This document shows positions 33,086-57,935 of a DNA stretch of 64,000 nucleotides, piece after piece (positions within the stretch are counted from its first letter, which is position 1; every line of letters begins with the position of its first letter). The notes beneath the pieces were generated by a model. The model did not search any database, was not told the origin of the DNA, and saw nothing but the letters and a program-made list of their open reading frames with translations. The position numbers and the translations under genes are program-made. Source of the stretch: Cognatishimia sp. WU-CL00825 (GTDB lineage: Bacteria; Pseudomonadota; Alphaproteobacteria; Rhodobacterales; Rhodobacteraceae). The stretch spans positions 1,426,001 to 1,490,000 of the forward strand of contig NZ_BAABWX010000001.1 of the NCBI RefSeq assembly GCF_040364665.1, written 5' to 3'.

Positions 33086-33670
33086 GTGGCAAAGACCCTG
33101 ACAATAGTGATCGTTGAAAACGATAAAGCCCGCGCGATGGCAATCGTCGACGGATTGCGTGAAACTGGTGATCACAAAATTCATGTTCTTGCAGAACAAA
33201 GTGGGCTCGCCCGCTCAATAGCAAAACTGTCACCAGATGTTGTCCTAATTGATGTAGCCAATCCTTCGCGCGATTCAATCGAGGAGCTGGCGCTAGCCTC
33301 GGGTCCGTTAGACCGCCCAGTTGCTTTCTTTGTCGATCACAGCGACGCGCGTATGACAAAAACCGCTATCGAAGCTGGCGTCTCTGCCTATGTCGTAGAT
33401 GGGTTGCAAAATGATAGAATTAAGCCGGTTCTTGATGCTGCAATCGCTCGGTTTCAACTTTTTCAACGCATGCGAATTGAGCTCGAGACCACAAAACGAG
33501 CCTTAGAAGAGCGCAAAATTATCGATCGAGCCAAAGGCATGCTCATGAAAGCGCGTGGGCTATCGGAAGACGAGGCTTATGCGTTGTTGCGAAAAACGGC
33601 GATGGATCAAGGCAAACGCGTGGCAGATATTGCGGTCGCTTTAGTCACAGCAGCGGATCTACTCTCATGA
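33086..33670 (+). CDS. nasT: NasT-type response regulator / antiterminator (receiver + ANTAR)
   Basis: A 194-residue regulator with an N-terminal receiver-like domain and a C-terminal ANTAR RNA-binding domain (about residues 130-190; ERKIIDRAKGMLMKARGLSE and EAYALLRKTAMDQGKR). The receiver has E11/D13 and a possible phosphoacceptor at D56 (VLIDVAN), but the family is controlled by binding to NasS rather than by a kinase. The start is GTG at 33086. It overlaps nasS by 4 bases. By family knowledge it binds two-hexaloop leader RNAs and prevents terminator formation; such a leader precedes nrtA here. Confidence 0.93.
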   Translation: MAKTLTIVIVENDKARAMAIVDGLRETGDHKIHVLAEQSGLARSIAKLSPDVVLIDVANPSRDSIEELALASGPLDRPVAFFVDHSDARMTKTAIEAGVSAYVVDGLQNDRIKPVLDAAIARFQLFQRMRIELETTKRALEERKIIDRAKGMLMKARGLSEDEAYALLRKTAMDQGKRVADIAVALVTAADLLS

Positions 33671-34869: not shown

Positions 34870-34886
34870 TTGCTGCAATGCAGCAA
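34870..34886. promoter_or_regulatory. Palindrome TTGCTGC-AAT-GCAGCAA upstream of the nrtA leader
   Basis: A perfect 7-bp inverted repeat with a 3-base centre, 57 bases before the first leader hairpin. The position is suited to a promoter-proximal operator for the nitrate operon. It does not match the NtrC consensus as I know it. No -24/-12 sigma-54 element was found nearby. Confidence 0.45.
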
Positions 34887-34942
34887 GGAAAACTCTCCTA
34901 AGGTTCGCATTTCAAAAATATCACAGCATACTCAACTCAGCA

Positions 34943-35011
34943 GCGTGACAACGAAGTCGCGCCAATCTGTGAAATTCCCAATGTTTGGGAACTCCTGAGC
35001 AAAGCCGCTCG
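34943..35011 (+). promoter_or_regulatory. Predicted ANTAR (NasT) target leader RNA: two hexaloop hairpins
   Basis: Hairpin P1 has arms 34943-34949 and 34956-34962 (7 bp, one G-U) and loop AACGAA. Hairpin P2 has stem GAGC (34997-35000) and GCTC (35007-35010), extended by one U-G pair, with loop AAAGCC. Both loops have A at position 1 and G at position 4, the invariant bases of known ANTAR targets. A third small hairpin (34975-34991, TTCCCA/TGGGAA) lies in the linker. P2 shares bases 35005-35010 with the terminator arm, so P2 and the terminator exclude each other. This is prediction from sequence. Confidence 0.82.
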
Positions 35012-35063
35012 ACACCTTGGCCCCTCCTCCTCCCTGGGCCCGGACTGTCGGCGGTTTTTTTTT
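35005..35063 (+). terminator. Leader (attenuator) terminator before nrtA
   Basis: The outer stem CCGC/GCGG and CGACA/TGTCG (35005-35014 with 35046-35054, one bulged T) encloses an inner GGCCC/GGGCC stem (35019-35023 with 35036-35040). Nine T follow at 35055-35063. Transcription would stop 36 bases before the nrtA start unless the overlapping hexaloop hairpin P2 forms. Confidence 0.88.
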
Positions 35064-35099
35064 GCCCATTAACCTGGATGGGCCCAATAAAGGACGAAA

Positions 35100-36467
35100 A
35101 TGATGAAACCTATTGCTTCCTTCCTTGCTGCGACAACGATGATGGTCAGCCCCGCACTTGCCGAATTGGCACTAGAGAAAGACGAGCTAACCTTCGGATT
35201 TATCAAGTTGACTGACATGGCGCCTCTCGCCGTTGCTTATGAGCAAGGTTTTTTTGACGACGAAGGTCTCTTTGTGACGCTCGAAGCACAGGCCAATTGG
35301 AAAGTGTTGCTGGACGGTGTTATTGATGGCCAATTGGCGGGTGCACATATGTTGGCAGGACAGCCGATCGCAGCCACCATTGGTTTCGGCACCAAAGCAC
35401 ACATCATCACACCATTCTCCATGGATCTAAACGGCAATGGCATCACCGTATCCAACAAGATCTGGAGTGAAATGGAACCATTTGTTCCCAAAATGGCAGA
35501 CGGACGTCCACAACATCCAATTTCAGCAAGCGCTCTAAAACCTGTAGTTGAACAATACGCCTCCGAAGGTAAGCCCTTTAATATGGGAATGGTCTTTCCT
35601 GTTTCGACCCATAACTACGAATTGCGCTATTGGCTCGCTGCCGGCGGAATTGAACCTGGCTTTTACAGCCCTGAAAACATCACAGGACAAATTGGTGCAG
35701 ACGTTCTATTGTCAGTGACCCCCCCTCCGCAAATGCCTGCGACAATGGAAGCCGGTACAATTTTGGGCTACAGCGTGGGTGAACCCTGGAACCAACAAGC
35801 AGTTGCCAAAGGCATTGGTGTCCCGGTGATCACCGACTACGAACTTTGGAAAAACAATCCAGAAAAAGTTTTCGGCATTTCTGCTGAATTTGCTCAGGAG
35901 AACCCCAACACCACATTGGCGGTGGTAAAAGCTTTGATCCGCGCCGCCATGTGGCTTGATGAAAACGACAACGCCAACAGAGAAGAAGCTGTGACCCTGC
36001 TGAGCCAGCCAGAATACGTCGGTGCTGATAGAGATGTCATTGCCGCTTCAATGACTGGGACTTTCGAATACGAAAAAGGCGATGTGCGAGCTGTGCCCGA
36101 TTTCAACGTTTTCTTTCGTTATAACGCAACTTATCCATTCTATTCCGATGCGATTTGGTACCTCACGCAAATGCGCCGCTGGGGTCAAATCGCAGAAGCA
36201 AAGCCAGACAGCTGGTATGACGAAGTTGCAAAATCGGTATACAAGCCCGAAATCTACTTAGAGGCAGCAAAGCTATTGGTAGACGAGGGTTTGGCAGACG
36301 CCAAAGACTTTCCGTGGGACAGCGATGGCTACAAAGCTATGACGCCCGCAGAAGATATCATTGATGGTATCCCTTATGATGGTCGCGCGCCCAACGCTTA
36401 CCTTGAAAGCTTGCCTATCGGTTTGAAGGGCAATCAAAAAATCATTGCATCAGAAATCCAAGGCTAA
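35100..36467 (+). CDS. nrtA: Nitrate ABC transporter, periplasmic nitrate-binding protein
   Basis: A 455-residue secreted binding protein. A signal peptide is seen (residues 1 to about 21, ending SPALA before ELALEK), without a lipobox or twin arginine. Family motifs include [20 protein letters not shown] and [11 protein letters not shown] (compare the equivalent region in NasS). It captures nitrate (and possibly nitrite) for NrtB/NrtCD. The RBS AAAGGA lies just upstream of two successive ATGs (35100, 35103). Followed by an intercistronic hairpin. Confidence 0.92.
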
Positions 36468-36536: not shown

Positions 36537-37619
36537 ATGACCGCCACCGACCCGCAAGCCGTCGCAAGCCACGAACGCGAAGCAAAGCGCGCGCGCCTCT
36601 TTACTCGAATTAACAAGGCTGATTCATGGTTTCAGGTCTTTGGACTTTCCTGGATTACGCCAATTTTGAAAGCCGCCGCCGGGGATAATCCCAAAGCCCA
36701 GCTAAAAGAAATCTGGAGATTACTATGTGTTCCATTGATCGCGATTGCATTGTTTTTAGCGCTTTGGGCGACGCTGGCCCCTAAGGTTCAAACTTCCTTG
36801 GGTGCGGTTCCCGGCCCTGCTCAGGTCTGGAGCGAGGCTGTTGGTCTGCATGAAGATGCAAAAATCAAAGCGGCAAAAGAAGCGAAGTTCAATGATCGTG
36901 TGGAAGCACGTAATCAAAAGTTCATTGAGAAAGGCGAGCCCGAAAAAGTTAAGCACATCGCTTATACTGGAGCTCCGAGCTATTACGCGCAGATTTGGAC
37001 ATCTATCAAGACGGTCTTTTTTGGCTTCTTAATCGCCACCGCCATCGCTGTGCCTGTCGGAATTATGGCGGGACTGAGCCCAATGGCAAACTCGGCTATC
37101 AATCCAATAATCCAGATTTTCAAACCCGTCTCGCCCCTAGCTTGGTTGCCTATCGTGACCATGGTCGTTTCGGCGACCTATACTGCAGATGACGGACTTT
37201 TCTCAAAATCCTTCCTGAACTCTGCAATCACCGTAACGTTGTGCTCGCTATGGCCAACACTGATCAACACAGCTTTGGGTGTGGCAAGCATCGACAAAGA
37301 CCTGGTGAGCGTTTCTAAAGTATTGAAAATGAACACTTGGACAAAGATCACCAAGCTGGTGCTGCCTTCGTCGCTGCCCCTGATCTTTACAGGGTTGCGC
37401 TTGTCATTGGGCGTGGGTTGGATGGTTTTAATCGCCGCTGAAATGCTCGCACAAAACCCGGGTCTAGGAAAATTCGTTTGGGACGAATTCCAGAATGGAT
37501 CCTCTAGTTCACTCGCGAAAATCATGGTTGCGGTTTTCACAATCGGCATCATCGGCTTTATGCTGGATCGTTTGATGTACGCGGTGCAATCCCTGTTCAC
37601 ATTTAGCGCGAACCGGTGA
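36537..37619 (+). CDS. nrtB: Nitrate ABC transporter permease
   Basis: A 360-residue inner-membrane protein of the NrtB/CmpB/SsuC class. The first membrane segment is [20 protein letters not shown]. Five further segments form the permease core with the EAA-like loop around [18 protein letters not shown]. Between segment 1 and the core a roughly 45-residue charged insert ([19 protein letters not shown] and beyond) is predicted to be periplasmic. The ATG at 36537 follows CAGGAT; an in-frame TTG lies 39 bases upstream. Confidence 0.9.
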
Positions 37620-37624
37620 CCGAC

Positions 37625-39319
37625 ATGAGCATTTTAAAATTCGAAAGCGTAAGCAAAAGCTTTGGTGAGGGAACTGCCCGTACCGACGTGCTCAAAAACA
37701 TCAACCTCGAAGTCGTGGAAGGCGAATTTCTCGTTTTGCTTGGGTTTTCCGGCACAGGTAAATCAACACTCATCAATTTGATGGCAGGCTTGGAGAAACC
37801 GTCAAAAGGGAAAGCTACCTTTAAGGGCAAACCAATCATCGGACCTGGCCCAGAGCGTGGCGTTATTTTCCAAAGCTACTCATTGATGCCGTGGCTGACT
37901 GTGATGGGCAACGTGATGTTAGCGCTCGACTCTGTGTTTCCCAAAATGTCAAAAGCCGACAAAGCTGAAAAGGCCACACACTACATCAAAATGGTGGGGT
38001 TAAGCCACGCCGCAACGCGGCGCCCAGCGGAATTATCAGGTGGTATGCGACAACGAGTGAATGTGGCGCGGGCGTTGGCCATGAATCCTGAGGTGTTGTT
38101 GCTGGACGAGCCATTGTCCGCGCTGGACGCGTTGACGCGGGCAAACCTAGCCGATGAAATCGAGGAAATCTGGCAACACGACAAAAAGACCTGCGTGCTG
38201 ATTACAAACGATGTGGACGAAGCGATTATTCTTGCAGATCGCATTATCGCGCTGAACCCAGACGGCACGCTTGGAAATGAATTCAAAGTCGATATCCCAC
38301 GGCCCCGCGACCGCATCGAAATGAACGACAACGCAGATTTTAAAACACTGCGTGTAGACGTCACTAAATATTTGATGGACGTAGGCATTGAGGGAAAAGT
38401 CGAAAGCACTCGCCAGCTGCCAGATGTTACGCCGATACATGGCACCCCAAAGGCCGTTTCCGATGCGCAAAAGGGACTAATTGAAAAGAACTTTCTGGAT
38501 TTCTCACAACTCCACAAAGTTTACCCAACCCCAAAGGGTCCTTTGACCGTTGTCGAAGATTTCAATTTAAAACTTAACCGCGGAGAATTCATTTCTTTGA
38601 TTGGCCATTCTGGTTGCGGCAAGTCAACGGTTCTAACGATGGCCGCGGGCTTGAACGAAATCTCAAAGGGCGCAATTCGACTTGATGGGCGACATGTTGA
38701 AGGGGCTGACCCAGAACGCGCGGTTGTTTTTCAATCCCCTAACCTATTCCCTTGGCTGACGGCGAAAGAAAATGTCGCGATTGGTGTCGACAAAGTTTTT
38801 CCCAAAGCATCAATGGCAGAGCGACAGGATGTTATTGAATACTATCTTGAACGTGTCGGTCTGGCAGAGGCCATGGATCGCCCGGCCCATTCCATGTCAA
38901 ACGGTATGAAACAGCGCGTCGGTATTGCACGGGCATTTGCCTTGTCGCCAAAACTTCTGTTGCTTGATGAGCCATTTGGAATGCTTGACAGCTTAACCCG
39001 CTGGGAGCTGCAAGAAGTTTTGATGGAAGTTTGGGATCGCACCAAAGTGACAGCTGTCTGCGTCACACACGATGTCGACGAAGCCATCTTGTTAGCAGAC
39101 CGTGTTGTGATGATGACCAACGGACCACAGGCAACAATCGGTAAAATCGTAGACGTTGATCTGCCACGCCCGCGAAGCCGTAAAGCCCTGTTGGCCCATC
39201 CGGACTATTACAAATACCGCCAAGAAGTTCTCGATTTCCTGGAAGAATATGAACATGGCGCAAAACCAAAATCCAAAACGGCTTCTCAGGAAACCAAATC
39301 CGAAGTAGCGGCGGAGTAA
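37625..39319 (+). CDS. nrtC: Nitrate ABC transporter ATPase, two fused ABC domains
   Basis: A 564-residue protein with two complete ATP-binding cassettes. Domain 1 has Walker A FSGTGKST, signature LSGGMRQR and Walker B LLLDEP, but its H-loop is TNDVDEA: Asn (38207-38209) replaces the switch His. Domain 2 has GHSGCGKST, Walker B LLLDEP and a normal THDVDEA, but the signature is MSNGMKQR instead of LSGGxxQR. In cyanobacteria two separate proteins, NrtC and NrtD, do this job. An alternative start is GTG at 37616, which overlaps the nrtB stop (GTGA). The pattern predicts one canonical and one impaired ATP site. Confidence 0.9.
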
Positions 39320-39323
39320 TACA

Positions 39324-41765
39324 ATGAAAAAGAAACTTATCGTCATTGGCGCTGGCATGGCATCTGGCCGCGCGCTTGAACATCTCATTGATGCTGACAA
39401 AGATGCTTATGACATCACATTGTTCAACGCTGAACCGCGCGGCAACTACAATAGAATAATGCTCTCTCCGGTTCTTTCTGGCGACAAAGAATTCCAAGAA
39501 ATCGTGACGCATGACGCTGCTTGGTACGAAGAAAACGGAGTGACCTGCCGGTTTGGAGAGCAAGTTGTCTCGATCGATCGGGACCGCAAAGTTGTTGTAG
39601 GTCAGAATGCCGAAGTTGCTTACGACAAGCTGTTGATTGCAACAGGTTCTGCCCCTTTTATCATTCCAGTCCCCGGCAAGAACTTACCAGGCGTTATTGC
39701 CTATCGTGACCTCGAAGACACCAATGCGATGATCGACGCCAGCGCAGCACCGCAAGCAAAAGCTGTGGTCATCGGTGGCGGGCTTTTGGGATTAGAAGCT
39801 GCCGCCGGATTGAAAGCCCGCGGTATGGATGTGACCGTTGTGCATTTGATGGGGCATCTGATGGAGCGCCAGCTGGATGAAGCTGCTGGTTACCTTCTGC
39901 GCCGCGCCCTTGAAGACAAAGGTATTGAAATCAAATGCAATGCGTCGACATCGGCTATCCTGGGTGAAGACAAGGTCGAAGCAGTTTTGCTTGACGACAA
40001 ATCTGTCATTCCTGCTGATCTTGTTGTGATGGCAGTGGGCATCCGCCCGGAAACGCGCCTTGCAACAGATGCAGCGATCGAAGTTGAGCGCGGTATTACG
40101 GTCAACGACGCAATGCAAACATCTGACCCTGATATTCTGGCTGTTGGCGAATGCGTAGAGCACCGTAAACAATTGTTTGGCCTTGTTGCACCACTGTATG
40201 ATCAGGCAAAAGTTGTCGCCAAGACACTGCTAAAGGAAGACGCTGTCTTTGCTCCAAAAGAAGTTGCCACCAAATTGAAAGTCACCGGATGTGATTTGTT
40301 TAGCACAGGCGACTTTGCAGAGGGTGAAACGCGTGAGGACATCGTTTTCCGCGATCCGGCTCGTGGCGTCTATAAGCGCTTGGTTCTTGAAGGAAATCAG
40401 CTGGTTGGTGCTGTCATGTATGGCGATACAGCGGATGGAAATTGGTTCTTTGGCTTGATCAAGGACAAGACCGATATCTCTGAAATGCGGGAGACTTTGA
40501 TTTTCGGACCTGCCTTCCAAGGGGGGGCCTCTCTGGACCCCATGGCGGCCGTTGCAGCCTTACCGCTTGATGCGGAGATCTGCGGTTGTAACGGTGTATG
40601 CAAAGGGCAGATCGTCGATGCCATTAACGCAGGTGCTACAGATCTTGGTGCAGTGCGCTCCACAACAAAGGCAAGTGCCTCTTGTGGCACTTGCTCAGGG
40701 TTGGTCGAGCAAGTTCTAGCGACAACTTTGGGTGATGACTTTGTGCTGCCAACTGCACAGCCAGTTTGCGGATGCACAGAGCTTACGCATGAAGATGTGA
40801 GGCGTTTGATCAAATCAAAGTCACTCAAATCTCAGCCAGCCGTGTGGCAAGAACTTGGGTGGTCAACCCCAAATGGATGCCATACCTGCAGACCTGCCCT
40901 AAACTACTATCTGTTGGCAGATTGGCCACTCGAATACGCAGATGATCCGCAAAGCCGTTTTGTCAACGAACGGAAGCACGCGAACATTCAAAAAGATGGC
41001 ACTTATTCCGTTGTCCCGCGCATGTGGGGCGGAATGACCACTCCAGACGAATTGCGCGCAATTGCCGATGCAGCTGATAAATTCAATGTGCCAACCGTGC
41101 ATGTCACGGGCGGGCAGCGCATCGACCTGTTGGGCGTAAAGGGCGAAGATTTGCCAGCGATTTGGGCTGATCTCAATCAGGCAGGTATGGTTTCTGGTCA
41201 TGCGTATTCAAAAGGCTTGCGTACTGTCAAAACATGCGTCGGTAAAGATCATTGTCGATTTGGCACGCAAGACAGCACTGGCCTGGGCATCAAATTGGAA
41301 AAACACCTTTGGGGATCTTGGACGCCGCATAAACTGAAACTTGGTGTTTCGGGGTGCCCAAGAAACTGTGCAGAAGCGACATGTAAAGACATCGGCATTG
41401 TCTGTGTTGATTCAGGATACGAAATATCGGTTGCAGGTGCAGCAGGTATGGAAGTCAAGCAAACAGAGTTTCTTTGCAAGGTGACCACCGAAGAGGAAGC
41501 CATCGAGATCATTTCAGCCTTTACACAGCTGTATCGCGAGAATGGCAAATATCTGGATCGTATCTTTAAATGGGTCGCTAAAGTTGGCCTAGAGTGGTGC
41601 ATCGAAAAAGTGGTCGACAATATTGATAACCGTAAGGCACTCGCAGAGCGGTTTGAAATCTCACAAAGCGTTTATCGCGATGATCCTTGGGCAAAACTGT
41701 CAACCGTTAAAGAAGCGCCAAAATTTGGACCTCTTGCAAATCTAACATTGGAGGCCGCAGAATGA
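39324..41765 (+). CDS. nirB: Assimilatory nitrite reductase [NAD(P)H], large subunit
   Basis: An 813-residue cytosolic enzyme reducing nitrite to ammonium with six electrons. FAD-binding GAGMASGRALEHL at the N-terminus, NAD-binding VVIGGGLLGLEAAAG around residue 152, and a BFD-like [2Fe-2S] region (CGCNGVCKG, CGTCSG) near 410-460 are followed by the sulfite/nitrite reductase part. Siroheme-[4Fe-4S] cysteines C638/C644 (CVGKDHC) and C678/C682 (CPRNC) are present. The stop overlaps nirD (ATGA). Confidence 0.95.
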   Translation: MKKKLIVIGAGMASGRALEHLIDADKDAYDITLFNAEPRGNYNRIMLSPVLSGDKEFQEIVTHDAAWYEENGVTCRFGEQVVSIDRDRKVVVGQNAEVAYDKLLIATGSAPFIIPVPGKNLPGVIAYRDLEDTNAMIDASAAPQAKAVVIGGGLLGLEAAAGLKARGMDVTVVHLMGHLMERQLDEAAGYLLRRALEDKGIEIKCNASTSAILGEDKVEAVLLDDKSVIPADLVVMAVGIRPETRLATDAAIEVERGITVNDAMQTSDPDILAVGECVEHRKQLFGLVAPLYDQAKVVAKTLLKEDAVFAPKEVATKLKVTGCDLFSTGDFAEGETREDIVFRDPARGVYKRLVLEGNQLVGAVMYGDTADGNWFFGLIKDKTDISEMRETLIFGPAFQGGASLDPMAAVAALPLDAEICGCNGVCKGQIVDAINAGATDLGAVRSTTKASASCGTCSGLVEQVLATTLGDDFVLPTAQPVCGCTELTHEDVRRLIKSKSLKSQPAVWQELGWSTPNGCHTCRPALNYYLLADWPLEYADDPQSRFVNERKHANIQKDGTYSVVPRMWGGMTTPDELRAIADAADKFNVPTVHVTGGQRIDLLGVKGEDLPAIWADLNQAGMVSGHAYSKGLRTVKTCVGKDHCRFGTQDSTGLGIKLEKHLWGSWTPHKLKLGVSGCPRNCAEATCKDIGIVCVDSGYEISVAGAAGMEVKQTEFLCKVTTEEEAIEIISAFTQLYRENGKYLDRIFKWVAKVGLEWCIEKVVDNIDNRKALAERFEISQSVYRDDPWAKLSTVKEAPKFGPLANLTLEAAE

Positions 41766-42094
41766 GCTGGCTTGATATCGGCACAATCGACGAAATTCCG
41801 GTTCGCGGTGCCCGCATCGTAAAAACAGTTTTGGGATGTGTCGCAATTTTTCGCACGGCAGAAAATGAAGTCTTTGCCACATCCGATCGATGCCCCCACA
41901 AAGGTGGTCCTTTGTCCGAGGGCATTGTACACGGCCGAAAAGTAACATGCCCGTTACACAATTGGGTTTTTTCATTGGAGAACGGAGAAGCACAGGGCGA
42001 CGACGACGGACAAATAGAAACCTATGAGGTCAAAATAGAAGCAGGCCGTTTGTTGTTAAACTCTGAAGAGTTGCAAGCCAGGAGCGCTGCATGA
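41762..42094 (+). CDS. nirD: Nitrite reductase small subunit, Rieske-type
   Basis: A 110-residue protein with the NirD Rieske fold. RCPHKGGPLSEG and TCPLHNWVFSLENG supply the two Cys-His pairs that bind a [2Fe-2S] cluster; in some NirD homologues these residues are lost, here they are intact. It partners NirB in nitrite reduction. Overlaps nirB by 4 bases at its start and nasA by 4 bases at its end. Confidence 0.93.
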   Translation: MSWLDIGTIDEIPVRGARIVKTVLGCVAIFRTAENEVFATSDRCPHKGGPLSEGIVHGRKVTCPLHNWVFSLENGEAQGDDDGQIETYEVKIEAGRLLLNSEELQARSAA

Positions 42095-44703
42095 CCGTCA
42101 AAACAACCTGCGCTTATTGTGGAACGGGCTGCGGGATCTTAGCAGACAAAAACGGCCAGGGTGTTACAATCAAGGGTGATCCAGAGCACCCAGCAAATTT
42201 TGGGCGTTTGTGTTCCAAAGGGTCAGCATTGGGTGATACCCTCGGCACCGAAGGACGGCTCTTGTACCCACAAATCAATGATCGCCGTGTGAATTGGGAA
42301 GAAGCGCTCGATCTTGTCGCGAGCAAGTTTTCAGACACGATTTCGACCTATGGCCCTGATTCAGTTGCATTCTATGTTTCTGGCCAGTTGCTGACCGAAG
42401 ATTATTATGTGGCAAACAAACTGATCAAAGGTTACTTGGGCACAGCAAATATCGACACAAATTCCCGATTGTGCATGGCGTCGACTGTGGCAGGGCACAA
42501 ACGCGCATTTGGAACTGATACAGTTCCTGGCACGTATGAAGACCTTGAAGAAGCCGACCTGATTATCCTCGTTGGCAGCAATCTGGCTTGGTGCCACCCG
42601 GTGCTATACCAACGTATTGCCGCTGCCAAGGCCGAGAAGCCGTGGATGAAAGTCGTCAATGTCGACCCACGCAAGACTGCCACAAGCGACCTGGCCGATT
42701 TGCATCTTCAAATCGCCCCGGGCGGTGATGTCGCCTTGTTTAATTACCTGCTTGCAAACACAGCAAAGCATGGCCAGCAAAACACAGGTTTTGTTAACGC
42801 ACATGTAGACGGCTATCAGAGCGCCTTGGATGCGGCAGCGGCCGACGATGTTAATCTGACGGGTTTAAGCGAACAAGATCTCGCCGACATTCTTGCGCTT
42901 TGGCTAAAGACCGAAAAAACCGTGACTGTTTTCTCTCAAGGTGTGAACCAGTCTTCTAGCGGTACTGATAAAGTTAACGCCATTATCAACTGCCATTTGG
43001 CAACCGGGCGCATAGGTCGCAAGGGTATGGGGCCACTTTCTGTTACCGGGCAACCCAACGCTATGGGCGGTCGTGAAGTCGGTGGCCTGGCCAATATGCT
43101 AGCATGTCACTTGGACATCGAAGATAGCAACCATCGTGATGCGGTCCAATCATATTGGCGCTCGCCAACAATGCCCAAACAGGCTGGTCTCAAAGCCGTC
43201 GACATGTTTGATGCCGTCGAAGATGGTAAAATCAAAGCCATTTGGGTGATGTGTACCAATCCAGCGCAATCCATGCCTGATGCCGACCGCGTTAAGAGCG
43301 CGCTTCAGAACTGCGACTTTGTTGCGGTTTCTGAAATGTACTCCAACACAGAAACTGCCAAGACCGCAGATGTTTTATTGCCAGCGTCGGGTTGGGGCGA
43401 GAAACATGGTTCCGTGACCAACAGTGACCGGATGATAAGCCGCCAGCGTGCGATTGCCCCCCCTCCGGCAGAAGCGCGGCACGATTGGCAGATCATCAGC
43501 GATGTCGCCAAACGCATGGGGTTTGCGGACGGTTTTGACTATGAACACCCGCACGACATATTTATCGAGCACGCGAAATTGTCAGGCATCGCAGCGGCGC
43601 TCGGCAAAGATTTTGATATCTCTGGGCTCGATAGCCTAAGCCGTCAGGAATACGAGGCGCTAGGCCCTACACGTTGGCCATTTCCAAAATCGGGCGGCAA
43701 AGAACGTTTTTTTTCGGACGGGCATTTTTACACTCCCAATCACAAAGCTAAAATGCTTGCCCTCACTCATACAGAACCAAGTGTGCCTCAAAGCGCAGAA
43801 CTCCCCTTCACGCTCAACACCGGGCGGGTTCGCGACCATTGGCACACGATGACACGCACCGGTTTAGCAGCACAGCTTAACCAACATACTGGCGAGCCAT
43901 ATATTGAGATCCACGCGGCTGACGCAGAACTATTGCACCTGCCCCCGGCTTCATTGGCAGAGGTGACCTCACCCAATGGTCGCGCCATCGTTCGGGTTTT
44001 GATTTCTGACAAAGTGGCAAAAGGATCGGTTTTTATGCCCTTGCATTGGACCGAAGAGACCGCAGCGCTCGGTCGGGTTAATGCCTTGATTCCATCGCAT
44101 GTAGATCCGGTGTCTGGCCAACCAGAAAGCAAAGCTGCTAAAGTATGCATTAAGAAGTTTACCGCACAGTGGTTTGGCTATGCGGTGTCTCTTCAGAGCT
44201 TCCAACCAACCAGTGCTTATTGGGCCAAAGCTAAAATAGTCAAAGGATGGCAAGCTGAGTTTGCAGACATATCGGTCCCTTCGGACTGGGAAAGCTATGC
44301 TACGTCGTTATTTGGCCTAGGCGAAACCCAAATCATTTCTGTGACCAGCACGGATAAATCCAGCGCAAGAATTGCACTGATGCAAAACAACAAGTTGGCG
44401 GCAGTGTTTTTCGCATCGCAAAACCCCGTAGCGCTTTCACGCAGTTTTGTAAGCTCGGCGTTGGGTGGCGACAGCCCCGTTTTGGCTGGACACGCTGGAC
44501 AAGGCGTTCCCGACCCCGGCACCACGCTTTGTGCGTGCTTTAACGTTGGTATCAACACAATTCTGAATGCCATACAGTCACAGGAATTGGTATCAGTTGA
44601 ACAAGTCGGAAATGCCTTGCAGGCCGGAACAAACTGCGGGTCATGTCGCCCTGAAATCTCTGCTTTGTTGCACCGAAACATAGTATTGGAGGCGGCGGAA
44701 TAG
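42091..44703 (+). CDS. nasA: Assimilatory nitrate reductase, catalytic subunit
   Basis: An 870-residue cytosolic molybdopterin enzyme reducing nitrate to nitrite. The N-terminal [4Fe-4S] ligands are C7, C10, C14 and C41. The Mo-bisMGD region includes DTNSRLCMAST, where the Cys probably binds Mo. The C-terminus carries an extra BFD-like [2Fe-2S] domain with C814, C816, C849 and C852 (LCACFNV; CGSCRPE), suiting electron transfer from an NAD(P)H or flavodoxin partner. No twin-arginine signal. No separate reductase subunit (nasC) is encoded beside it. Confidence 0.94.
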   Translation: MTVKTTCAYCGTGCGILADKNGQGVTIKGDPEHPANFGRLCSKGSALGDTLGTEGRLLYPQINDRRVNWEEALDLVASKFSDTISTYGPDSVAFYVSGQLLTEDYYVANKLIKGYLGTANIDTNSRLCMASTVAGHKRAFGTDTVPGTYEDLEEADLIILVGSNLAWCHPVLYQRIAAAKAEKPWMKVVNVDPRKTATSDLADLHLQIAPGGDVALFNYLLANTAKHGQQNTGFVNAHVDGYQSALDAAAADDVNLTGLSEQDLADILALWLKTEKTVTVFSQGVNQSSSGTDKVNAIINCHLATGRIGRKGMGPLSVTGQPNAMGGREVGGLANMLACHLDIEDSNHRDAVQSYWRSPTMPKQAGLKAVDMFDAVEDGKIKAIWVMCTNPAQSMPDADRVKSALQNCDFVAVSEMYSNTETAKTADVLLPASGWGEKHGSVTNSDRMISRQRAIAPPPAEARHDWQIISDVAKRMGFADGFDYEHPHDIFIEHAKLSGIAAALGKDFDISGLDSLSRQEYEALGPTRWPFPKSGGKERFFSDGHFYTPNHKAKMLALTHTEPSVPQSAELPFTLNTGRVRDHWHTMTRTGLAAQLNQHTGEPYIEIHAADAELLHLPPASLAEVTSPNGRAIVRVLISDKVAKGSVFMPLHWTEETAALGRVNALIPSHVDPVSGQPESKAAKVCIKKFTAQWFGYAVSLQSFQPTSAYWAKAKIVKGWQAEFADISVPSDWESYATSLFGLGETQIISVTSTDKSSARIALMQNNKLAAVFFASQNPVALSRSFVSSALGGDSPVLAGHAGQGVPDPGTTLCACFNVGINTILNAIQSQELVSVEQVGNALQAGTNCGSCRPEISALLHRNIVLEAAE

Positions 44704-44705
44704 TC

Positions 44706-45728
44706 ATGCAAAGTTTTCCGATGTTCTTTAAAACGTCAGGACGCCGCTTTGTGATCGTCGGGGGTGGAGAGCAAGCCGCGCAAAAATGTCGGCTGCTTTT
44801 GAAAACAGATGTCACAATCGAAGTCATTTCCCGCACTCTAGAAGATGAACTTGCCGCGCTAAAAACCGCTGGCAAGATCCAGCACGACCATGGCCAGATT
44901 TCGCTACAAAGTTTTTCCGAGGCAACATTGGTTTTTGTGGCAACTGGTTGCCCGGCGGTTGATCGCTGTGTTCACGCAATCGCCAAGGATGCCGGAGTTC
45001 TGGTGAATGTTGTCGATCAACCCCACTTGTGTGATGTCACCACCCCCTCGATTGTAGACCGCGATCCCATCGTGGTTGCGATAGGTTCCGAAGGCACTGC
45101 CCCGGTCCTAGCACGCCGGATCAAAAGTCAAATGGAACAGATCCTGAGCCCAAAGATCGGTGGATTTGCGGCCTCTGTTGGGTTGCTTCGCTCAATGGTG
45201 TCGCAATATGTCCCAAAGTCTCAGAGACGTGAGTTCTGGCGGAATGTCTTTACCGGCCAAATCTGGAAGGATTACGAAAGCGGGTTGGAACGAAAGGCAC
45301 TAGCAAACCTAAAGGAATACATCAAAGGCATGCATCAGGGCCTCACGAGCGGCGCGCTCACTATAATTGATACCTCTGCTGGATCGGCCGACCTGATTTC
45401 TCTACGCGCCGTGGAACGCTTGCAAGAAGCGGATGAGATATTCTACGAATCTCTTGACGACAAAGCGATCCTAGAATTGGCGCGCAGAGACGCTGAAAGA
45501 CATATCCTCGCCGCATCTTCAGGTGCCAATCCATGGCCTTCTAAGATGTGTGTTTCATTTGTGAAACGCGCCGCGAGCGATGGTCGCAACGTCGTTTGGT
45601 TAAAAAATATCAACAAAACACCGGACAGTTTTTCATCAATGGCTACCGAGAACTTCAAAGATATTAGTTTTGAAATTCTACACGCTCCGCAATCGCCAAA
45701 TATAGGAATTCAAGCGGTTTACGCCTGA
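44706..45728 (+). CDS. cysG: CysG-like siroheme synthase: intact precorrin-2 dehydrogenase/ferrochelatase part, truncated methyltransferase part
   Basis: A 340-residue protein; full CysG is about 460. Residues 1-150 match the CysG dehydrogenase/chelatase domain (RFVIVGGGEQAAQKCRLLL NAD loop; VDRDPIVVAIGSEGTAPVLA). The remainder to about 210 is the helical dimer region. After that comes only a remnant of the uroporphyrinogen III methyltransferase: SADLISLRAVERLQEADEIF and ELARRDAERHI align with the family but the SAM-binding GAGPGDP is replaced by IDTSAGS and the last half is missing. It should make siroheme from precorrin-2, while SUMT activity must come from elsewhere. It follows nasA by 2 bases. 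Confidence 0.83.
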   Translation: MQSFPMFFKTSGRRFVIVGGGEQAAQKCRLLLKTDVTIEVISRTLEDELAALKTAGKIQHDHGQISLQSFSEATLVFVATGCPAVDRCVHAIAKDAGVLVNVVDQPHLCDVTTPSIVDRDPIVVAIGSEGTAPVLARRIKSQMEQILSPKIGGFAASVGLLRSMVSQYVPKSQRREFWRNVFTGQIWKDYESGLERKALANLKEYIKGMHQGLTSGALTIIDTSAGSADLISLRAVERLQEADEIFYESLDDKAILELARRDAERHILAASSGANPWPSKMCVSFVKRAASDGRNVVWLKNINKTPDSFSSMATENFKDISFEILHAPQSPNIGIQAVYA

Positions 45729-57666: not shown

Positions 57667-57741
57667 GCGGGCGTAGCTCAGGGGTAGAGCATAACCTTGC
57701 CAAGGTTAGGGTCGGGCGTTCGAATCGCCTCGCCCGCTCCA
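57667..57741 (+). tRNA. tRNA-Gly(GCC), copy 1
   Basis: 75 nt with encoded CCA. Acceptor GCGGGCG/CGCCCGC (7 bp), D arm GCTC/GAGC, anticodon arm TAACC/GGTTA with loop TTGCCAA (anticodon GCC), T arm GGGCG/CGCCT-type with TTCGAAT loop. Identical to the two following copies. Confidence 0.97.
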
Positions 57742-57763
57742 GAGAGTAACTAGAACTGACGGT

Positions 57764-57838
57764 GCGGGCGTAGCTCAGGGGTAGAGCATAACCTTGCCAA
57801 GGTTAGGGTCGGGCGTTCGAATCGCCTCGCCCGCTCCA
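57764..57838 (+). tRNA. tRNA-Gly(GCC), copy 2
   Basis: A perfect 75-nt duplicate of copy 1, including CCA, after a 22-nt spacer. Anticodon GCC. Confidence 0.97.
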
Positions 57839-57860
57839 TCGGTTCCAGACATTTTGAAGC

Positions 57861-57935
57861 GCGGGCGTAGCTCAGGGGTAGAGCATAACCTTGCCAAGGT
57901 TAGGGTCGGGCGTTCGAATCGCCTCGCCCGCTCCA
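57861..57935 (+). tRNA. tRNA-Gly(GCC), copy 3
   Basis: A perfect third copy, including CCA, after another 22-nt spacer of different sequence. The start-to-start distance is 97 nt for both intervals. Confidence 0.97.

Follow-up and report, generated by a model that had tools for sequence, protein, structure and literature searches.

How could an antitermination protein reach a terminator when the two RNA hairpins expected to carry it there stand far apart? The question is raised by a leader upstream of the nitrate assimilation genes of Cognatishimia sp. WU-CL00825, within a stretch of 64,000 nucleotides that we call the window. A sequence-only reading had predicted a NasT-controlled antitermination switch before nrtA and had remarked that the linker between its two hairpins, at 33 nucleotides (nt), was long and contained a small hairpin of its own, which seemed unusual for the motif. 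ANTAR leaders are described as two-hairpin in the accounts of amiE and nasF (PMC3369936) and of the AmiR, NasR and NasT leaders (PMC7496416), and Bradyrhizobium NasT targets are treated in PMC6759348. The linkers of the E. faecalis eut leaders measure 5–12 nt, and a change to 3 or 14 nt is described as drastically reducing EutV-dependent induction (PMC3369931). Lengthening a linker by 20 nt is reported to leave no antitermination in vitro (PMC8934654), and an actinobacterial curated set is given as allowing linkers of 2–25 nt (PMC8164766). Of two models for how the hairpins are used, one lets a dimer hold the two simultaneously (PMC3369931, PMC3369936) and the other, proposed by the authors of the crystal structure, has them contacted in succession (PMC8934654).

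The nasT–nasS locus and the leader before nrtA

The leader lies in the 263 bases between the nasS stop (34836) and the nrtA ATG (35100). The features that enter the argument are these, in window coordinates:

33086–33670, + strand: nasT, encoding a receiver-like domain and a C-terminal ANTAR domain, 194 aa
33667–34836, + strand: nasS, encoding an NrtA-like nitrate-binding sensor (NMT1_2, E 4.9e-53)
34871–34885, no strand assigned: palindrome TGCTGCAATGCAGCA, a possible activator site 5′ of the leader
34926–34932, + strand: GCATACT, possible −10 element, which would put the transcript start just before P1
34943–34962, + strand: hairpin P1, GCGTGAC-AACGAA-GTCGCGC, 7 bp, hexaloop with A at position 1 and G at position 4 (A1/G4), C-G closing
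34975–34991, + strand: middle hairpin, TTCCC-AATGTTT-GGGAA (TTCCCAATGTTTGGGAA), 7-nt loop with A1 and G4
34996–35011, + strand: hairpin P2 (antiterminator), TGAGC-AAAGCC-GCTCG, 5 bp, hexaloop with A1 and G4, C-G closing
35001–35063, + strand: intrinsic terminator, overlapping P2, nine T at 35055–35063
35023–35034, + strand: CCTCCTCCTCCC, apical loop of the terminator, anti-Shine-Dalgarno-like
35100–36467, + strand: nrtA (NMT1_2, E 1.4e-93), first gene of the controlled operon
36537–45728, + strand: likely rest of the operon by Pfam and NCBIfam matches, nrtB to a CysG-like protein

The ANTAR regulator and NasS partner that had been read directly upstream are confirmed by Pfam, by structure matches and by gene order. 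The nasT product matches Pfam ANTAR at E 6.2e-22 and Response_reg below threshold, indicating a weak receiver-like domain, and a profile search found it to be the one ANTAR match in the genome, adjoining the leader. Its best solved-structure matches are 6wsh/6ww6 (EutV), 1s8n and 4akk (NasR). EutV 6wsh aligns with NasT residues 7–187 of 194 (E 5e-19), and NasT Y165 and M173 are the aligned counterparts of the EutV RNA-contact residues Tyr164 and Met172, both reported to be important for loop binding (PMC8934654). In the same account G4 stacks on Tyr164 and A1 makes no specific contact (PMC8934654). The nasT and nasS genes overlap by 4 bases at start and stop, and the pair, a receiver-like and ANTAR protein beside an NrtA-like sensor, stands 5′ of nitrate assimilation genes. 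After nrtA come nrtB, a fused nrtC/D-type ATPase, nirB, nirD, an assimilatory nitrate reductase and the CysG-like protein, and spacing and strand suggest that nrtA through the CysG-like gene form a single operon. In the CysG-like protein at the operon end (44706–45728), the TP_methylase match covers only 8–85 of 212, and the C-terminal methyltransferase domain looks truncated or diverged. Further along the window, three tRNA-Gly(gcc) genes lie in tandem at 57667–57935 with a 97-base period and identical Rfam tRNA scores.

Both A1/G4 hexaloop hairpins of the sequence-only reading, with loops AACGAA and AAAGCC, are present and closed by C-G. C-G-closed A1/G4 hexaloops are likewise described for the ANTAR two-hairpin RNAs (EutV/eut, NasR/nasF, AmiR/amiE; Ramesh 2012 PMC3369931, Walshe 2022 PMC8934654), with which the leader also shares a second hairpin overlapping the terminator left arm, an adjacent ANTAR gene and a target in nitrogen metabolism. 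The overlap is of six bases, as had been read: the left arm of the terminator core at 35005–35014 (CCGC, a bulged T, CGACA) pairs with TGTCGGCGG (35046–35054) and has 35005–35010 in common with P2. P2 and the terminator are mutually exclusive in folding. With P2 enforced the leader folds at −35.5 kcal/mol, against −46.7 kcal/mol with the terminator; the P2 fold is thus 11 kcal/mol less stable, so that termination is the default fold and P2 must be held open. A simple terminator scan of the leader returned none; the scan accepts only loops of 3–8, and here the stem is bulged and the loop longer.

The leader departs from the two-hairpin RNAs in its linker, which is 33 nt long (measured to the 5-bp P2 stem) and harbours a third hairpin of ANTAR-like appearance; this hairpin recurs in relatives, where its loop often has 7 nt. 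Only when the middle hairpin is counted does the spacing come near the published lengths, with a gap of 12 nt between P1 and the middle hairpin and of 4 nt between the middle hairpin and P2. The middle loop of the window could close to a shorter loop, and its position 5 is T. Folding is more stable than in any of 200 shuffles for the whole leader region (z = −3.5), for the terminator half (z = −3.6) and for the three-hairpin stretch (z = −2.7). The linker piece alone is unremarkable in the window sequence (z = −1.4, with 16 of 200 shuffles reaching its stability), and the case for the middle hairpin therefore rests on relatives.

Several further elements surround the hairpins. Motif sampling over the family leaders, upstream of P1, returned TGCnGCAnTGCAGCA; the window holds one exact match, and matches with up to two mismatches are not enriched there (2 found versus 7.9 expected from shuffles). 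The palindrome at 34871–34885 is, we presume, a possible NtrC-type activator site. GCATACT was sighted by eye in relatives, motif sampling giving only a diffuse signal, and a promoter pattern scan of the leader found no sigma-70 match, so a clear −10 element is not established. Between the terminator and the nrtA start lies an extra hairpin, GCCCATTAACCTGGATGGGC (35064–35083); a comparable one appears in the leader L219 (GCCCATC...GGTGGGC). In the terminator loop, CCUCCUCC came to notice through a weak Rfam match to CcsR1. Of 117 family terminator loops, 14 contain CCTCCTCC, versus 0.2 with letters shuffled, and across the whole window this motif is neither rarer than chance nor enriched (2 found, 1.0 expected). 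CTCCTCCC was seen in the leaders L219, L220 and L222; followed by five T within 3–30 bases it occurs 4 times in the genome, versus 1 for the reversed pattern. The small RNA NfeR1 is described as silencing ntrBC, and its anti-Shine-Dalgarno motif matches the terminator-loop motif (PMC10746234), for which reason the terminated leader could itself act as a small RNA.

The outer hairpins and their linker across Rhodobacteraceae

An ANTAR match is present in 197 of 394 Rhodobacteraceae genomes. Our first set comprises 130 leaders, that is, the window and 129 relatives that are the best-scoring places among the 197 and hence a non-random draw; G008 was skipped, the window's own copy (L001) was omitted and L022, whose contig ends in nasS, was dropped. 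Among the 100 relatives with enough downstream sequence, an nrtA homologue follows nasS in 98 (three at only 32–34% identity) and none was found in L081 and L131. The nasS–nrtA gap in relatives spans 204–341 bases, with L094 (143) and L123 (627) as exceptions. L123, with its 627-base gap, and L131, which has no nasS directly after nasT, are NasT loci without a recognisable leader of this type.

By pattern, P2 followed by a T-run is found in 117 of the 130 leaders (116 relatives and the window) and is absent in 13; A1, G4 and the GC closing were required by the pattern, so their presence cannot count as separate evidence. In 113 of the 117, the right arm of the terminator takes up the 3′ half of P2 in an alternative pairing. 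Upstream of P2 stands a P1-like hairpin in 108 and none in 9. Here the pattern fixes G4 and the C-G closing, which likewise carry no independent weight, and A1 is found in 104 of 108 loops, the consensus reading A, A, mixed, G (pattern-fixed), mostly purine, mostly pyrimidine. In the P1 region, 84 of 117 leaders carry an A1/G4 hexaloop whose stem has 4 bp or more, versus 2.8 after shuffling and 2 of 117 in the upstream control. Alignment A2 was built from leaders with the CCC-N7-GGG form of the middle hairpin, so that its middle CCC/GGG pairs are there by construction; 52 were found and 49 aligned, L014, L063 and L105 being left out. Six of the seven P1 pairs change on both sides among these 49, and the whole structure is 88.2% paired, against 24–48% when slid.

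Loop-to-loop distances between P1 and P2 run from 40 to 63 (median 49, 108 leaders), and the linker from 22 to 47 nt (median 33). Linkers longer than 25 nt account for 105 of the 108, and none has 12 nt or fewer. The long linker that had been called unusual does exceed the published ranges of 5–12 and 2–25 nt, but within the family it is the norm. A second set gave the same picture: of 80 loci, 64 named leaders were kept after the removal of 2 whose leader was shorter than 200 bases and of 14 whose start was identical to set 1, and near-identical species may remain among the 64. P1 and P2 are both present in 52 of the 64, with a linker longer than 25 nt in 51 of the 52; P2 is absent in 12.

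Rfam 15 gave no ANTAR-type match and none at gathering in the leader, the only sub-threshold matches there being CcsR1 (12.1 bits versus 65.3) and anti-hemB (11.4 bits), with E up to 5. We therefore built a covariance model of our own (R1) from 49 leaders including the window. The covariance search proposed along with the sequence-only reading thus finds the window site at 62.1 bits, a score that includes the window's own membership of the model, and one convincing site in the genome (E 6.3e-13; next 0.24; 150 of 1446 first-look candidates scored). Further NasT targets were sought in the genome in this way, and no second convincing match emerged among the 150 of 1446 candidates scored. Applied to 15 loci chosen from the 81 named, some of which may be among the model's own members, R1 matched 13 at E below 1e-4; both misses were Paracoccus denitrificans. 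With nasT–nasS upstream, P2 and terminator mutually exclusive and the arrangement recurring family-wide, the leader is best read as a NasT-controlled antitermination switch, and its predicted control by NasT is well supported by homology.

A third hairpin in the linker

Searched for as a stem of 3 bp or more closing a loop of up to 8 nt, a middle hairpin occurs in 87 of 108 set-1 leaders. The small linker hairpin that had been read from the window is there, at 34975–34991; what had been missed is its ANTAR-type look, for G stands fourth in 64 of these 87 loops and a purine comes first as well in 57. The 23 loops without G4 are in part apparent errors of folding choice and in part not. In set 2 the hairpin is found in 47 of 52 leaders, with G4 in 35 of 47 and purine-1 with G4 in 30 of 47. 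Cognatishimia maritima, the best-scoring named relative (NasT 82% identical), has the hexaloop ATTGAT on 6 bp, and the middle loop of Pacificibacter marinus is AGTGAT. Spacing recurs too: the gap from P1 to the middle hairpin has a median of 11 nt in set 1 (10–90% range 5–15) and 13 nt in set 2, and that from the middle hairpin to P2 a median of 5 nt in both (3–14 in set 1).

Comparison with shuffles and control stretches points the same way. The 32 bases before P2 have a mean folding z of −0.99 versus shuffles, against −0.02 and −0.30 for two upstream control stretches. A loop of 6 or 7 nt with purine-1 and G4, on at least 3 pairs with three G-C, occurs in the middle region of 71 of 117 leaders, versus 4.0 after shuffling and 6 of 117 in the control; the loop of the window, AATGTTT, is of this kind, and the feature is not universal. 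When loops are mechanically widened to 6 nt or more, G stands fourth in 89 of 117. The strict A1/G4 hexaloop on at least 4 bp is found in only 14 of 117, versus 1.4 shuffled. The commonest middle form is CCC-N7-GGG (55 of 117, versus 1 of 117 in the control), with 7 nt, not 6, between CCC and GGG. G4 accompanies 64 of 85 fully paired closings, among them CCC/GGG, CCG/CGG, GCC/GGC, CGC/GCG and TTC/GAA. RNAalifold on the unfiltered 117-row alignment predicted P1 and P2 and did not predict the middle hairpin. Among the 49 aligned leaders the three inner pairs of the middle stem show almost no variation, which carries little information as the subset was chosen for them; at the loop-closing position, 22 of the 49 have no pair. 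From loop, place and recurrence, the linker hairpin is probably a third ANTAR-type hairpin.

On balance we lean towards a nitrate-responsive attenuator in which NasT would pass from P1 over the middle hairpin to P2 and so block the terminator. Without nitrate, NasS would hold NasT, the strong terminator would fold and transcription would stop before nrtA. With nitrate, by homology, NasT would be freed from NasS, would dimerise or oligomerise and would grip hairpin loops of the nascent leader. It would dock on P1 as P1 emerges, be passed to, or joined on, the middle hairpin, as spacing and loop conservation suggest, and reach P2 in time to prevent the terminator from forming. The middle hairpin would let NasT cross an otherwise too long linker, because the gaps between neighbours (12 and 4 nt here; medians 11–13 and 5) are near the 5–12 nt of EutV. 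What we observe directly is the sequence, its conservation, the exclusive folding of P2 and terminator, and the spacing. The NasS–NasT chemistry and the antitermination are presumed from relatives in the literature; the contact of NasT with the middle hairpin and the stepwise order we only infer.

Alternatively, the middle hairpin may do no more than fold the linker and bring P1 and P2 close, with NasT contacting those two alone. This would suit L066, the sole relative labelled as the same genus, which keeps a stable 7-bp stem under a loop, TCTTCT, that is not ANTAR-like. It would also suit the many middle loops that have 7 nt or could close to 3–5 nt, and the laxer A1, present in 33 of 55 CCC-N7-GGG loops versus 104 of 108 P1 loops. 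A mere fold, however, has no reason to keep G4 (47 of 55), A5 (39 of 55) and a pyrimidine at position 6 (47 of 55) when positions 3 and 7 are mixed; none of these letters was prescribed by the search pattern. We consider this alternative less likely than passage over three hairpins, though it is a serious contender.

Paracoccus denitrificans, other families and the meaning of a third hairpin

In P. denitrificans, NasT is reported to bind the nasA leader (PMC3795266, PMC5424462), and nitrate binding to NasS is reported to free NasT (PMC3795266). The nasA leader resembles ours in its NasS–NasT pair, in its place between nasS and the first operon gene and in three tandem hairpins: the nasS–nasA stretch of NZ_CP141053 (L132) has hairpin loops AACGGC (5884), AATGAT (5909) and GACGAT (5932), at about −48, −23 and 0. 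It differs in being matched neither by R1 nor by the P2 pattern and in having no run of at least four T after its hairpins, and since R1 finds no match there it is a divergent case. The predicted fold puts the end of the extended first hairpin about 137 bases upstream of the nasA ATG (6039) and the end of the third about 91 bases upstream of it. Both distances agree with those of HI and HII in PMC5424462, which on this mapping would be the first and third hairpins, equivalent to P1 and P2. According to that account, mutation of HI severely reduced nitrate-dependent transcription and a chromosomal HI mutant did not grow on nitrate, and changes in HII had little effect with nitrate and gave a twofold rise with ammonium (PMC5424462). 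The middle hairpin goes unmentioned in the passages of PMC5424462 that we consulted. If our mapping holds, the mutated hairpins are an essential P1 and the P2 equivalent (PMC5424462), which would fit NasT contacting these two alone. The idea that the middle hairpin is the sole true P1 was rejected, as the distal loop is stricter (A1 in 104 of 108) and its apparent P. denitrificans equivalent is essential.

We also compared 60 nasT-like loci outside the family but within its class or phylum; in 41 of them a P2-like hairpin overlaps a terminator. Of these 41, 26 have an A1/G4 hairpin in a proximal position (loop to loop −19 to −36), versus 0.85 shuffled, and 17 have a distal one (−45 to −68), versus 0.84. 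Eight leaders (L161, L174, L175, L181, L198, L200, L203, L218; 0.01 shuffled) have both, and thus A1/G4 hexaloops at all three places. Where a locus offered several candidate P2, we took the one preceded by more hairpins, a choice that somewhat inflates these counts, and the shuffles permuted the letters of the upstream stretch with P2 fixed, without repeating the P2 choice. Short spacing (−19) marks eight of nine leaders (L160, L161, L162, L164, L167, L169, L184, L194) in one of these families, which we take to be Rhizobiales; the ninth, L165, has a distal hairpin instead, and only L161 of the eight has a distal A1/G4 hexaloop too. Like ours, they have nasT–nasS nearby and an A1/G4 hairpin followed by P2 and then the terminator; they differ in having that upstream hairpin at the canonical short spacing. 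Elsewhere, L171 pairs a distal A1/G4 hairpin with a middle one found by eye (loop GATGAC), and L208 and some others have the distal hairpin with no obvious middle one. It seems, then, that the recruiting hairpin can occupy one of two positions and that some leaders have kept both.

Two side observations concern the same leaders. Several of the short-spaced ones (L160, L161, L162, L164, L169, L194) have, roughly at the Rhodobacteraceae P1 place, a distal hairpin whose loop is not of ANTAR type, for example GGCCCTTCGCGGGTC in L162. GAATTC precedes the proximal hairpin in L161, L169 and L194, and GAATT likewise in many Rhodobacteraceae.

These families bear on the alternatives. At a distance from P2 similar to that of our middle hairpin (−19 versus −21 here), the presumed Rhizobiales hairpin is a canonical A1/G4 hairpin in eight of nine leaders, which argues against a linker that is only folded. 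The counts of 26 proximal, 17 distal and 8 both, out of 41, suggest that the recruiting role has moved between positions. They could mean that NasT uses whichever upstream hairpin is best, distal here and proximal in the presumed Rhizobiales and others, the third being a leftover or an affinity booster with no relay. The family-wide recurrence of the middle hairpin speaks against a leftover, not against a booster, and we regard this explanation as quite improbable. A role apart from NasT, for instance in pausing RNA polymerase or in binding a different protein, would agree with the rather uniform stem (CCC/GGG in 49 of 85), as in a sequence-specific element, but is highly improbable given a loop that resembles the NasT type and a spacing like that between ANTAR hairpins.

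Passage of NasT along all three hairpins, the reading that we prefer, would make the leader a variant of the ANTAR leader that is new in its third hairpin. No three-hairpin ANTAR leader was described in the largely open-access literature searched. One likeness is EutX, in which an extra single G4 hexaloop beyond the two-hairpin motif amounts to a third ANTAR-type loop; EutX differs in that it sequesters EutV as a small RNA and is no leader, and in the passages describing it the extra loop is remarked on, not presented as a conserved architecture (PMC8934654). Tentatively, and as a possibility that falls just short of even, the NasT leaders of Rhodobacteraceae and of scattered Pseudomonadota may share a triple-hairpin ANTAR architecture of recruitment, relay and antitermination. 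The two-hairpin rule would then be a special case of a longer array, and in that array only the spacing between neighbours would matter.

Two consequences follow. Searches limited to linkers of up to 25 nt would miss nearly all leaders of the family, those that are longer making up 105 of 108 in set 1 and 51 of 52 in set 2. Leaders with a natural third hairpin may separate simultaneous from sequential models of how ANTAR proteins use two hairpins, because a relay needs the middle loop and simultaneous gripping of P1 and P2 does not.
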